From Thermoproteota archaeon (lineage in GTDB: Archaea; Korarchaeota; Korarchaeia; B14-G2), in assembly GCA_003661385.1 (NCBI GenBank), contig QMWA01000112.1, forward strand, positions 1 to 5,938: a stretch of DNA of 5,938 bases, read 5' to 3'. The notes beneath the pieces are model-generated. The model did no database searches. It worked only from the letters and a program-made list of their open reading frames with translations, and was not told the origin of the DNA. Position numbers and translations under genes: made by a program. Shown here in pieces: positions 1,997-5,938 of the stretch. Each line of letters opens with the position of its first letter. Position 1 is the stretch's first letter.

Positions 1997-4900
1997 CTAT
2001 GTCATGAGGGTGTAGTAGAGTTCTAGCTCTATGCATCTGAGGAATGCTTCTAGGAGCTCGAGGGCTGCTCCTGCTCTTTGGGTCTGGGAGTGTTCATCGT
2101 GCCACCATGATGTGATCATCTCATCGAGCTTGTAGGCTTGGTCGTAGAGCCTCCTGTATGCGTCATTGACTTTATCGTAGAAGTCATATTTGATGTACTC
2201 GTACTCTATGTCATCTATCTCGTAGTTTTTCCTCTTTATCTCGCTGCTTATCTCCTTTAGCCCCTTCTTCACCTGCTCATCTAGCTTTCTCTTGGCTTCC
2301 GTCAGCTTATCAACGCTTTCCTCGATCTTCTCAGTTATGGCGTGTGCTACGGTGGTGAGGTGAGCAGGTAGGCCGCTGGGCTCCTCAGATAAGGCATCTA
2401 GCTCAGCGGTTATGAGCAGGGAGCTGAGGATCATTGCTGTGTTGAACGTTATTGCATAAGCTATCTCTGCTGTAAGGCCGTATATAGCACCGAGAGCGCT
2501 CCCTATGCCTCCTGCAATAGGCCCCCAGAACATCAGCAGGAAGGAGATGCCCTCGAGGTTCATCCGTGTTATCTCCCTGTTCTCCACGGAGTCGTGGTAG
2601 AGGACACCATACCCGTACTTCAGCTCCTTTGAAACCTCCCAGTTTTTCAGGATGCTATACCCGCTCAGGTTCGCCTCCCAGCTAGCCTCCAGAGAGAGTA
2701 GGTCTCTAGAGAACTTCTCTCTTGAAGGCATGCTGAAGCCAGCTACCCACCACCCTGATCCATACTTAGCTGCCCTAAGCCTTCTCTGCTCTAGTGTGTC
2801 ATCTATCTTGAAGGGGTCTCCGCTTTGGAGCCTCTTCCTCCTCTCCTCCATCTTGCTGAGGACAGTTTTCGCGTCGAATAAGGGTGCTAGCCAGCTTGCT
2901 CCCCTCCGTATCAGGCCATCTATGCTCTTCTCGAATGTCGTGTACTCTCTTGGGTAGCTGTCCTCGTAGGCTAGCTTCCTCAGCTTCATGTAAGCTCTCT
3001 GTAGCTTAGTGATCTGCTCTAGCAGCTGCCTGCATGCTGACTTCCCCTCAACTGCTATGGTCCTCTCCACTATCCTCGGAGGGTCAGGGTACTGTAGCCC
3101 GCTGTCACATATCTTGCATGTCAGCCTTATCCTCCCAGTCCTCAGTGGAGCTCTGAAGGCTATGCACTCGCCTTCACTCGTCAAGAGGAACCTCCCTGCT
3201 CCAAGCTTGTCCTCAGCTTCGTCCAGAAGCTCCCTGAGCTCCTCAGCTGTAAGCAGGTCTCTTAGCCCCTTGTCCTCGAGCTCCTCCTCCAGCTTGCCTC
3301 TCACGTCGCTTGGAAGCGCCCTTACCATCTCCTCGATAAGCTCTTCCAGCTTCTCTAGCTCTGAAGAGCCCTTCTCAACCCACTCGGCATGCCACTTGAA
3401 GAAGAGCCTGTCATTGAGCTTGAGTGCAGCTCTGCAGTGGCTACACTCCGTGCTGCCTGAGGCGTAGCCTGCCTCCCTCCCCTCCTTAAGCTGGCAGTAT
3501 GCCACAAGCAGGTCAGTGTCCTTTCCGTGTGCACTGATTATCGTGGTCTGCCCAGGCCTTAGCTTAAGCACCTCACCTCTCCTCGGGTATGTGATGTCAG
3601 CGTCTATGCCACTGTAGTCTAGCCACTTGGCAGCTGGAGAGCACTCTCCTCTGCTTCCCTCTAGGATCTTGCTGAGCTTCCTGGTGAACTCGGCTCTAGC
3701 CTTCTCAGCTTCCTCTCTGCTCCTCTTGGCCTCTTCCATGAGCTTCCTGAGCAGCCTCCTGTAGTCTACGCCCTCGATGACTTTTCGAAGGCTGTCTCTA
3801 GCCTCCTTGATCTCAGCGTAGGCCTCCTCCTCTATCACTTCCATTTCCCAGTGTCTTATGAGCTTAGAAGCCTTCATCGCCATCATGAGCTTTAGCGCAG
3901 TGTTCAGGAGCCTCTCACATGCTACAGCATCACACACCACTTGCGCTTTTGCTCTGCTCTCTCTCGCCTTCACCTCAGCTTCTCTCCACTCTCTGAGAGC
4001 CTGCTCTAGCTCCCCCCTTAACTCAGCTTCCTCTGGGATCTGCTCTACCACGTGTTCAGCTAGCTTCAAGTCCCAGGGGAGAGGCTCCTCTAGTGCGCTT
4101 CTGCCTGCTAGGTTCCTCTTGACGAGGATTAGGTCCTCTATGTGGAGCTTCTCGTAGAAGCTCAGTCGGCTAAGCTCCTCACTGAGCTTGGTGAACAGGC
4201 TTTCATCTGATATTCTCACCTTAACCTCGTGTACTACCTCATAGGCTCCTGTTTCCCTGCTCTTGGCAGCAGGGTCATCTAAGTCCTCAACCTTATACTG
4301 GATGTCGTTTACAGAGAGCCTTATAGTAGCCTCCCTATGAGGGGCTGGCTGCGGGCGTGTAATGAACTTGTACGCCCCATGTAGCGGAGGCGGCGCCACG
4401 TACACTGCTACAGGCCCTGTGCTCACGGTGGAGCGTCCAGGAGGGTGCTGTGAGTGTGGCAGCATGGCCCCAGACCCCTCTACCAGCTCCCACCTGCATG
4501 TGATGCTGTCTGGTAGAGGTACTCTCAGAGAATTCTGGCAGGCTACCCTACCACTGAGGCAGTCTACTTCATGGCATGTTACTGTCAGGTAGTCCTTGTC
4601 TACTGCCTCTACTGCTAGTGGAAGCAGCCCTCCATAGGGCACAGTAGCCTCTCTGTCACTGAGCAAGGTGGCCTCTAGCTCTCCTCCCTTCTCGAACTTA
4701 TAGCTGAGGCAGCATGCTTTAACCTTAACAGGAGCAGGAGGCTTCCTCCTCTTCCCTGCTGTGTAAGCTGCTACAGCTGCTCCAGCTGCTACAGCTGTAG
4801 CTATGACTGCTGTCCTCACGCTGATCTTTCCTCCCTCAGCTTCTGAAGGCGGAGCCTCCTCTCTAGGCTGAGGGCTTGTAGCCTCAACTGGAGGAGACGT

Positions 4901-5938
4901 AAAGGGAGCTGAAGGCTGAGGTGGTGGAGTTGGAGGCTGTGGAGGAGATGGGAGCGGAGTCAATGGGGTTGGAGGGGGTGGAGAGGCTGTAGGGAATGGA
5001 GGTGGGGTTGTTATAGGAGGTGGAGAGGGTGTAGGGAATGTTTCTAGTGGTGGGACTGTTATGGTTATGTGGCACATGTTGTTTTCTTCGTTTGCCTCTT
5101 GGATTACGTTATATGGGTCTATGTACACGTATATCGTGTAGTCTCCGGGGTTCTGGAATGCTAGCTCTATCCAGAGCTGCTTTACCTCGCCTGCCTCTAT
5201 GCTCTGGCGTGTTTCTCCCAGCTTGTATCCCTCTGGGAGCTCTCCCAGCGTGAATAGTGCCTTAAAGGAGGTGGAGAGGCCTGTTGACTTGACTTCAGCT
5301 GTCACCTTGATGGGCTCACCTGGGCTTGGGCTTGTGCTGTTGGCTTGCATCCCCACGCAGCTTAGGTCTCCCATGGGCTGTGGAGGTGGCGGTGGTGTGG
5401 TTGGCTCAACTTTGATTGCTGGTGTGGCTGCTACATCAGAGTAGTATGGCTGCTCTAGGCATGTTGCCTTGGCTCCAGCTATGAAGGATGCTTCCCCTGG
5501 TGTGGTGGGCTTGTAGACCCATTTGACTTCTGCTGTGGATCCTGGTGGGAGCTGTGGTATGAGCTCTGGCACTGGGCCTTCGATGAGCTCCAGCTTGCAT
5601 GTCGCGTTACATGCTATTATAGGCCTTATGTTTGTCATGTTAGCTGAGCCTGTGTTCTCGATTACAGCCTTAACCTCCACTGCCTGCCCTACATGCAGGG
5701 CTGTAGCATTGACTTCTATCCTTATGCTCAGGTTGCAGGCTGCCTCAAGTACGGTAATCTCCCCTATGCAAGCTGATGTTATGCTCTCGCCCATGAGCTC
5801 CCCTAGGACAGTAGCCTGCACCACATAGCGTCCAGGTGAGGTAGCTAGTAGAGTATAGGTGAAGGAGGCTTCAGGCATCTCAGAGGTCAGCGTAGCATTG
5901 GGTGGGCTGGGGCCAGCTACAACCTCCAACCCCTCTGG
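1997..5938 (-). CDS. Very large multidomain surface/membrane protein with CARDB-like, Ig-like and coiled-coil regions (5' end missing)
   Basis: The frame stays open to the window edge, so the TTG at 5929 is taken as internal and the true start and any signal peptide lie outside. Residues are counted from 5929. Residues 1-62 end one NEW3/CARDB-like domain, 66-175 form a second, and 186-293 form a CARDB domain with the typical DPYNVIQEANEENN ending. Residues 294-365 are a Pro/Thr/Ser stalk; 369-392 are an Ala-rich membrane helix followed by KRRK. Then come Ig-like module A (402-541), a coiled coil (575-757), Ig-like module B (772-961) split by a helical insertion (856-911), a helical region, a Gly-rich hydrophobic hairpin (1126-1176) and a C-terminal coiled coil (1190-1272). 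Six N-glycosylation sequons lie before the membrane helix and one after, supporting N-outside, C-inside. CARDB-like domains commonly mediate adhesion or ligand binding on archaeal surfaces. No enzymatic motif is visible. Possible roles are an adhesin, a surface receptor or an envelope scaffold; none is proven. Confidence 0.9.
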   Translation of the reverse strand, partial: PEGLEVVAGPSPPNATLTSEMPEASFTYTLLATSPGRYVVQATVLGELMGESITSACIGEITVLEAACNLSIRIEVNATALHVGQAVEVKAVIENTGSANMTNIRPIIACNATCKLELIEGPVPELIPQLPPGSTAEVKWVYKPTTPGEASFIAGAKATCLEQPYYSDVAATPAIKVEPTTPPPPPQPMGDLSCVGMQANSTSPSPGEPIKVTAEVKSTGLSTSFKALFTLGELPEGYKLGETRQSIEAGEVKQLWIELAFQNPGDYTIYVYIDPYNVIQEANEENNMCHITITVPPLETFPTPSPPPITTPPPFPTASPPPPTPLTPLPSPPQPPTPPPQPSAPFTSPPVEATSPQPREEAPPSEAEGGKISVRTAVIATAVAAGAAVAAYTAGKRRKPPAPVKVKACCLSYKFEKGGELEATLLSDREATVPYGGLLPLAVEAVDKDYLTVTCHEVDCLSGRVACQNSLRVPLPDSITCRWELVEGSGAMLPHSQHPPGRSTVSTGPVAVYVAPPPLHGAYKFITRPQPAPHREATIRLSVNDIQYKVEDLDDPAAKSRETGAYEVVHEVKVRISDESLFTKLSEELSRLSFYEKLHIEDLILVKRNLAGRSALEEPLPWDLKLAEHVVEQIPEEAELRGELEQALREWREAEVKARESRAKAQVVCDAVACERLLNTALKLMMAMKASKLIRHWEMEVIEEEAYAEIKEARDSLRKVIEGVDYRRLLRKLMEEAKRSREEAEKARAEFTRKLSKILEGSRGECSPAAKWLDYSGIDADITYPRRGEVLKLRPGQTTIISAHGKDTDLLVAYCQLKEGREAGYASGSTECSHCRAALKLNDRLFFKWHAEWVEKGSSELEKLEELIEEMVRALPSDVRGKLEEELEDKGLRDLLTAEELRELLDEAEDKLGAGRFLLTSEGECIAFRAPLRTGRIRLTCKICDSGLQYPDPPRIVERTIAVEGKSACRQLLEQITKLQRAYMKLRKLAYEDSYPREYTTFEKSIDGLIRRGASWLAPLFDAKTVLSKMEERRKRLQSGDPFKIDDTLEQRRLRAAKYGSGWWVAGFSMPSREKFSRDLLSLEASWEANLSGYSILKNWEVSKELKYGYGVLYHDSVENREITRMNLEGISFLLMFWGPIAGGIGSALGAIYGLTAEIAYAITFNTAMILSSLLITAELDALSEEPSGLPAHLTTVAHAITEKIEESVDKLTEAKRKLDEQVKKGLKEISSEIKRKNYEIDDIEYEYIKYDFYDKVNDAYRRLYDQAYKLDEMITSWWHDEHSQTQRAGAALELLEAFLRCIELELYYTLMT
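4977..5040 (-). repeat. Direct repeat in the proline-rich stalk coding region
   Basis: Two 22-base copies at 4977-4998 and 5019-5040 differ at one position and lie 42 bases apart, in frame (14 codons). They encode FPTASPPP and FPTPSPPP inside the Pro/Thr/Ser stalk of the large surface protein. The surrounding DNA is similarly G-rich on the plus strand, so slipped pairing could change the stalk length between strains. Confidence 0.6.

Follow-up and report, generated by a model that had tools for sequence, protein, structure and literature searches.

Does the large ORF of this locus encode a protein in which surface domains are connected through a single membrane helix to a large internal scaffold, and does such a protein belong to any described family? 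The window, i.e., the whole stretch of DNA analyzed (5938 bases), corresponds to the entire contig C112 of the genome (1.74 Mb) of a heat-loving archaeon. The ORF (1997..5938) lies, like all the features described below, on the (-) strand and encodes 1313 aa; its reading frame is still open at the contig end, which has cut off the 5' end and with it the signal peptide and the first domain. The order of the parts given in the first-pass annotation, namely an ectodomain, a Pro-rich stalk, an Ala-rich helix, the sequence KRRK, and more than 900 further residues, was borne out and is common to the four orthologues identified. As had also been supposed, no described family covering this architecture as a whole was found: Pfam, NCBIfam, PHROGs, and sequence searches against the PDB yielded only CARDB/Ig domains and generic coiled coils. 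CARDB is the only domain recognized by Pfam above its cut-off, NCBIfam adds nothing to it, and the PHROGs and PADLOC matches were weak, those of PADLOC involving mostly long coiled-coil proteins. Archaeal CARDB proteins are numerous and diverse, PMC8416519 giving 489 architectures among 914 proteins, so that one more arrangement would by itself cause no surprise. The answer we favor, the chances of which we put at about even, is that the ORF encodes a type-I membrane adhesin of Korarchaeia with an internal scaffold.

The same domain order was sought in archaeal genomes, as the annotation had advised, and was found in four other Korarchaeia genomes, which appear in the public records as the Thermoproteota MAGs INS_M12_B43, Aegir_M25_B147, B8_G17 (Guaymas), and AUK061; the contig prefix QMVU01 of one of them (G025) corresponds to a Korarchaeia genus (PMC10667645), and the assignment to this class is based on it. 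The family is present in 5 of the 29 genomes of the phylum, and the module profile search detected it in no other genome among the 394 archaeal genomes; no relatives were found in viral contigs and plasmids. Three orthologues are complete (1161 aa in G007, 1237 aa in G009, and 1286 aa in G025) and carry N-terminal signal-type helices. The fourth (G022) consists of an N-terminal part of 240 aa ending contig C151 and a C-terminal part of 682 aa ending C65, the middle being unseen and the contig ends showing no overlap. The signal peptide missing from the window protein is supplied by the three complete orthologues as well as by the N-terminal fragment of G022. Since four other genomes carry the same architecture, an assembly chimera was ruled out as its origin. 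The inspection of neighboring genes, which had also been advised, gave a negative result: no conserved neighbor or partner gene with a telling function was found near the family genes, and no operon is visible downstream of the gene in G009. The HEPN/nucleotidyltransferase neighbors present in G009 and G022 were judged to be incidental, because toxin-antitoxin pairs of this type are common in thermophilic archaea.

The ectodomain starts at the contig end with an incomplete Ig-like domain of the NEW3 type (residues 1-64, 5747..5938), the Ig-like character of which was assigned by eye only. It is followed by a second NEW3-like Ig domain (residues 66-175, 5414..5743), in which residues 84-144 match NEW3/NPCBM_assoc (PF10633) below the cut-off (E 0.0069, 17 bits vs. 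a gathering cut-off of 24.4), and by a CARDB domain (residues 191-289, 5072..5368; PF07705, E 1.2e-14, 54.8 bits vs. a gathering cut-off of 22.7), which the orthologues match as well. When the family profile was compared with solved structures, the CARDB-type entries 3idu, 2kl6, and 2l0d were obtained, over the CARDB stretch only. The CARDB component of the ectodomain described previously is therefore firmly established, while the NEW3 component corresponds to a weak match. The Pro-rich stalk (residues ~291-368, 4835..5068) is conserved in kind in the orthologues. Surface proteins encoded in the same genome (e.g., C189, C120, and C144) show similar features, consisting of a signal peptide, an Ig-type ectodomain (including CARDB in C189 and C120), a Pro-rich stalk, and an Ala-rich helix. 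Ig-type surface proteins of this genome, 549-583 aa long, end ~10-20 residues past the helix, whereas 919 residues follow it in the window protein and the post-helix part is long in the orthologues too; the helix is therefore not placed as in C-terminally anchored surface proteins, in which it lies at the very C-terminus and is followed by no more than a short basic tail. VARTIG of the Thermococcales (arCOG07710) is likewise a large archaeal Ig/CARDB surface protein. It differs in that its hypervariable Ig domain, which defines the head of an operon of variable membrane proteins, is C-terminal, and the passages of PMC8416519 dealing with it mention no coiled-coil part in the cytoplasm.

The membrane helix, which had been annotated at residues 369-392, was placed at residues 372-394 (4757..4825). 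It is rich in Ala, is preceded by the residues EAEGGK and followed by KRRK, and the flanks of the helix are mostly acidic before it and basic after it. Its Kyte-Doolittle peak (1.74) is within the range of shuffled sequences of the same length and composition (p 0.45), and the peaks are higher in G009 (1.99) and G025 (2.01). A hydrophobic helix occurs between the Pro-rich stalk and a conserved CC motif in the window protein and in all three orthologues covering this region, and the alignment with the family profile extends across the membrane anchor at the C-terminus of C189 (E 5.4e-19). It is on this shared position and on the homology with the C189 anchor, rather than on hydrophobicity alone, that the membrane assignment is based.

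Beyond the helix, two copies of one Ig-like module were identified: module A (residues 407-579, 4202..4720), which starts with the CC motif, and module B (residues 765-966, 3041..3646), which ends with the signature IxC..DSGxQ..D. Both of them, and hence the Ig-like modules reported at this place in the annotation, were significant (A, 9.1e-15; B, 2.8e-10) in searches with a module profile for which the modules of the orthologues and of the bacteria were used and all rows from the window were left out. Neither module matches any Pfam entry, nor any PDB entry by sequence. The coiled coils previously noted were also confirmed, the window protein containing 111 heptad-type windows vs. a mean of 2.9 in shuffled sequences. 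They form an arm that separates A from B (residues 580-764, 3647..4201), delineated from the heptads and a low-confidence model, and an insert in a loop of module B (residues ~846-910, 3209..3403), delineated from the heptads and the alignment. The structure prediction suggested at the outset was run with AlphaFold on residues 360-1313 with six alignment rows, and the resulting model (pLDDT 39) served as a rough guide to helices and strands, not for fold searches; it contains long helices at residues ~635-693 and ~703-760. Paired long helices are visible in this low-confidence model (pLDDT 39).

The modules are joined by ~25-28 residues in the bacterial pair described below and by a helical arm of ~160-290 residues in the archaea. 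Inserts inside B occur after a conserved W in the window protein and G022, and G025 and, again, G022 carry one in a loop that comes earlier; module B of G007 and G009 has no coiled coil inside, so that this feature is present in three of the five members. The arms differ in length and position among the orthologues, and the Ig cores are kept. Those inserted inside B are probably antiparallel hairpins, since both ends of the insert must rejoin the same Ig core. Module B is followed in every member by a hydrophobic helical pair and further helices; these belong to a helical C-terminal region (residues 967-1313, 2000..3040, delineated from the low-confidence model and the profile), which is the least conserved part of the protein (16-31 percent to the window). 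The pair (residues ~1128-1180, 2399..2557), which closely follows B in each of the five members, corresponds to the second hydrophobic stretch mentioned in the annotation. A decayed copy of the C-terminus is present in G028, which belongs to another class. Weak matches to the C-terminal profile in other archaea (the best being 4.8e-5, in G161) were set aside, as helical regions yield such matches.

The succession of an ectodomain, one helix, and a long coiled-coil interior recurs in the phylum, judging from the sequences, since a second family has it too. Its member P0002 (G007:C43, 1130 aa) consists of an Ig/CARDB ectodomain on a stalk and a single helix, after which come 630 residues of coiled coil predicted to be cytoplasmic. 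A homologous interior occurs in G027, again from another class, where the ectodomain ORF ends contig C20 and a 772-residue interior ends C214, the two contigs sharing a 23-base end. This second family has no A+B modules and carries a C-terminal GLWDW domain of its own, which showed no relation to the C-terminal domain of the window family in profile comparisons. Such a layout is the general plan of chemoreceptors and sensor kinases, and since the coiled coils of P0002 begin soon after the helix, it might be asked whether the window protein is a signaling receptor of this kind, in which the ectodomain would sense a ligand, the helix would relay the signal to the coiled coils, and a partner would give the output. 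This is the main rival to the adhesin-scaffold reading, and we consider it unlikely: neither HAMP, MCP signal, kinase, nucleotidase, nor any other output domain was detected with Pfam and NCBIfam, there is no conserved partner gene, and the length of the arms is not conserved among the orthologues. Because this length changes freely and the Ig cores stay the same, the arms are better regarded as spacers or oligomerization arms than as a register-sensitive signaling rod.

The relatives of modules A and B outside the archaeal family throw light on their origin. The scan of genome contigs gave no relative with a single-protein query, whereas the alignment query matched the Omnitrophica protein L068 (GWA2_52_8). 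The tandem A+B pair was then recognized in several more Omnitrophota among the 384 genomes searched (2e-20 to 1.6e-13, in genomes outside the profile), the carriers being L068, G429, G710, G426, and G424, and G476 having a more distantly related one. Secreted Omnitrophota proteins were the only A+B carriers found besides the archaeal family. They share with it the order A then B and the motifs WE(L/I), GPAxxYxAP, and DSGxQ. In contrast to the archaeal proteins, they are secreted or are lipoproteins (a signal peptide or lipobox is present wherever the start is visible), have no membrane helix directly before the pair and no coiled coils within it, and several of them show an HExGH-type motif close to their C-terminal end. 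A tree of 23 modules placed all the A modules except the divergent one of G476, archaeal and bacterial alike, in one clade (support 1.0), in which the archaeal A modules were nested (support 0.97). The sequences therefore indicate that A and B had already been duplicated when the family split into its archaeal and bacterial branches, and a transfer of the pair between the archaeal and bacterial lineages, in either direction, seems likely. A predicted model of the L068 pair (pLDDT 76) is nearly all beta; its module B resembles the Ig-like structure 2yhg (Z 9.2, rmsd 2.5 over 93 residues) and its module A gave weaker matches (best Z 6.4). Foldseek matches (E near 1e-4, TM-scores near 0.2) were too poor to name a family. 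As far as the tools used can show, A+B appears to be an undescribed family of Ig-like domains. A life on other cells is assumed for many Omnitrophota (PMC10066038).

On which side of the membrane the modules lie in the archaea is the next question, since the bacterial pair is extracytoplasmic: if a cytoplasmic site in the archaea does not reflect a genuine relocation, it is where the model is weakest. The annotation's placing of CARDB, NEW3, and Ig-like domains normally outside the cell is thereby sharpened, as the modules following the helix are themselves secreted domains in the Omnitrophota. We nevertheless hold it likely that A, B, and the whole post-helix region are cytoplasmic. This location is favored by the charges flanking the helix, by a cytosol-like composition, and by the depletion of sequons. 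The composition score of the post-helix part is -0.065, as compared with a mean of -0.056 (sd 0.028) for cytoplasmic proteins and +0.071 for the protein's own ectodomain, the control being a small one (67 cytoplasmic-type and 6 surface proteins from the same genome); one sequon is present in the 919 aa after the helix vs. six in the 290 aa of the ectodomain. For the Ig modules alone, the composition score fails to separate inside from outside, the secreted bacterial modules scoring alike. The cysteines point the other way: those of the archaeal modules were kept or gained (the CC motif; C766 and C941, which are invariant in alignment A1), and would suit an oxidizing compartment. Many thermophilic archaea have disulfides in the cytosol, Ca. 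Korarchaeum cryptofilum having fewer signs of them than Nanoarchaeum equitans (PMC3177088). The parity of cysteines in the cytoplasmic-type ORFs gave no signal of cytosolic disulfides (60 even vs. 59 odd). An ORF of 232 aa in the genome, a size that a PDO might have, matches Thioredoxin_3.

For A+B to be outside, residues 372-394 would have to fall short of spanning the membrane, or the protein would have to be cut or inverted, with the C-terminal hydrophobic hairpin as the true anchor. The secretion of the pair in the Omnitrophota, the conserved cysteines, and the mild hydrophobicity of the Ala-rich helix in the window protein, not above that of shuffled sequences, are consistent with this possibility. 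It seems to us unlikely, given that the helix occupies the same site in the window protein and in three of the three orthologues covering it, is stronger in G009 and G025, and is aligned with the anchor of C189, and that the charge bias, composition, and sequon depletion after it all speak for the cytosol. Lastly, although the helices flanking a hydrophobic hairpin recall alpha-helical pore formers, and the C-terminal region is the most divergent and has left a decayed copy in G028, a contact-dependent effector that would dock on another cell through its ectodomain and insert its C-terminal helices into a membrane is most improbable, because this region stays behind the membrane helix, no immunity-type neighbor or toxin-family match was recognized, and the divergence fits the distance between genera.

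Returning to the adhesin with an internal scaffold, the protein might work as follows. After removal of the signal peptide, at least two NEW3/CARDB Ig domains would be exposed on the Pro-rich stalk, one helix would cross the membrane, and some 900 residues would lie in the cytoplasm. This inner part would comprise the A+B pair and its helical arms, which are probably antiparallel and separate A from B and in many cases also extend from the loops of B, and the hydrophobic hairpin of the helical C-terminal region would pack on or in the membrane. The outer domains may bind a surface partner or an S-layer component, the Ig pair and the arms may oligomerize inside the cell into a stiff scaffold under the membrane, and the protein would thereby couple outer contact to inner organization. 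Of the transmembrane link to an internal scaffold proposed in the annotation, the topology is retained here, on indirect evidence, as the best reading; no ligand, partner, or conserved neighbor was found to go with it.

The outer Ig-type adhesion domains, the single helix, and the inner linkage recall cadherins and integrins by analogy only, no homology being claimed, and the inner part of the window family is large and made of Ig modules and coiled coils. It is conceivable, though we advance this tentatively, that the family is a prokaryotic counterpart of the layout of animal adhesion receptors, with Ig/CARDB domains outside, a helix, and a cytoplasmic Ig/coiled-coil scaffold, in which a secreted pair of the bacterial type moved inside and arms grew from its loops. 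What appears to be new, as far as the tools show, is the A+B family itself, its spread across two domains of life, its place after a membrane helix, and the presence of helical arms in the Ig loops. A+B would be an undescribed Ig-like family common to Omnitrophota and hydrothermal archaea. If the proposed topology is true, contacts at the surface of some Korarchaeia would be connected directly, by a mechanical or signaling path, with a large scaffold inside the cell, which would bear on how TACK archaea organize their surface and interior.

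Two open reading frames lie on the plus strand beside the window gene: one of 88 aa (1373-1636), which is predicted to form a coiled coil and to end in a membrane helix and which matched generic coiled coils only, and one of 253 aa (365-1123) with several hydrophobic segments, for which no matches were obtained in Pfam and NCBIfam. At two loci orthologous to the window gene, a HEPN gene adjoining a nucleotidyltransferase-type frame occurs downstream in convergent orientation (L064, 13828-14542; L070, 2177-2813); the nucleotidyltransferase Pfam match holds at L064 only, and not at L070.

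Among the secreted Omnitrophota proteins carrying the A+B Ig-like pair, several (L068, 946-6432; L103, 2-2371; L107, 47-4156) have an HExGH motif near the C-terminus, which suggests that they contain metalloprotease-like domains. In the single HExGH protein tested, that of L068, such a domain was not recognised by Pfam.

P0002, the second ectodomain-helix-coiled-coil protein, is encoded by an intact gene in G007 (C43, 10099-13488). Since the match in the sister genome G009 (C9, L140; 79 percent identity) is interrupted and its frame broken, a recent loss of this gene in G009 is suggested. In G027, the P0002-type gene spans two contig ends (C20 and C214; L033 and L147), which have a 23-base end in common within this single gene; its product carries a C-terminal CFIxTAxYGS-type motif region that was also matched in six other archaeal genomes.

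A frame-broken remnant in G028, which belongs to another class of the phylum (C45, L028, 4072-4292), is a decayed copy of the C-terminus of the window protein: it shows 71 percent identity with residues 1237-1278 (42 residues compared) and is closer to this C-terminus than is any same-class orthologue. The decayed copy has probably moved laterally.
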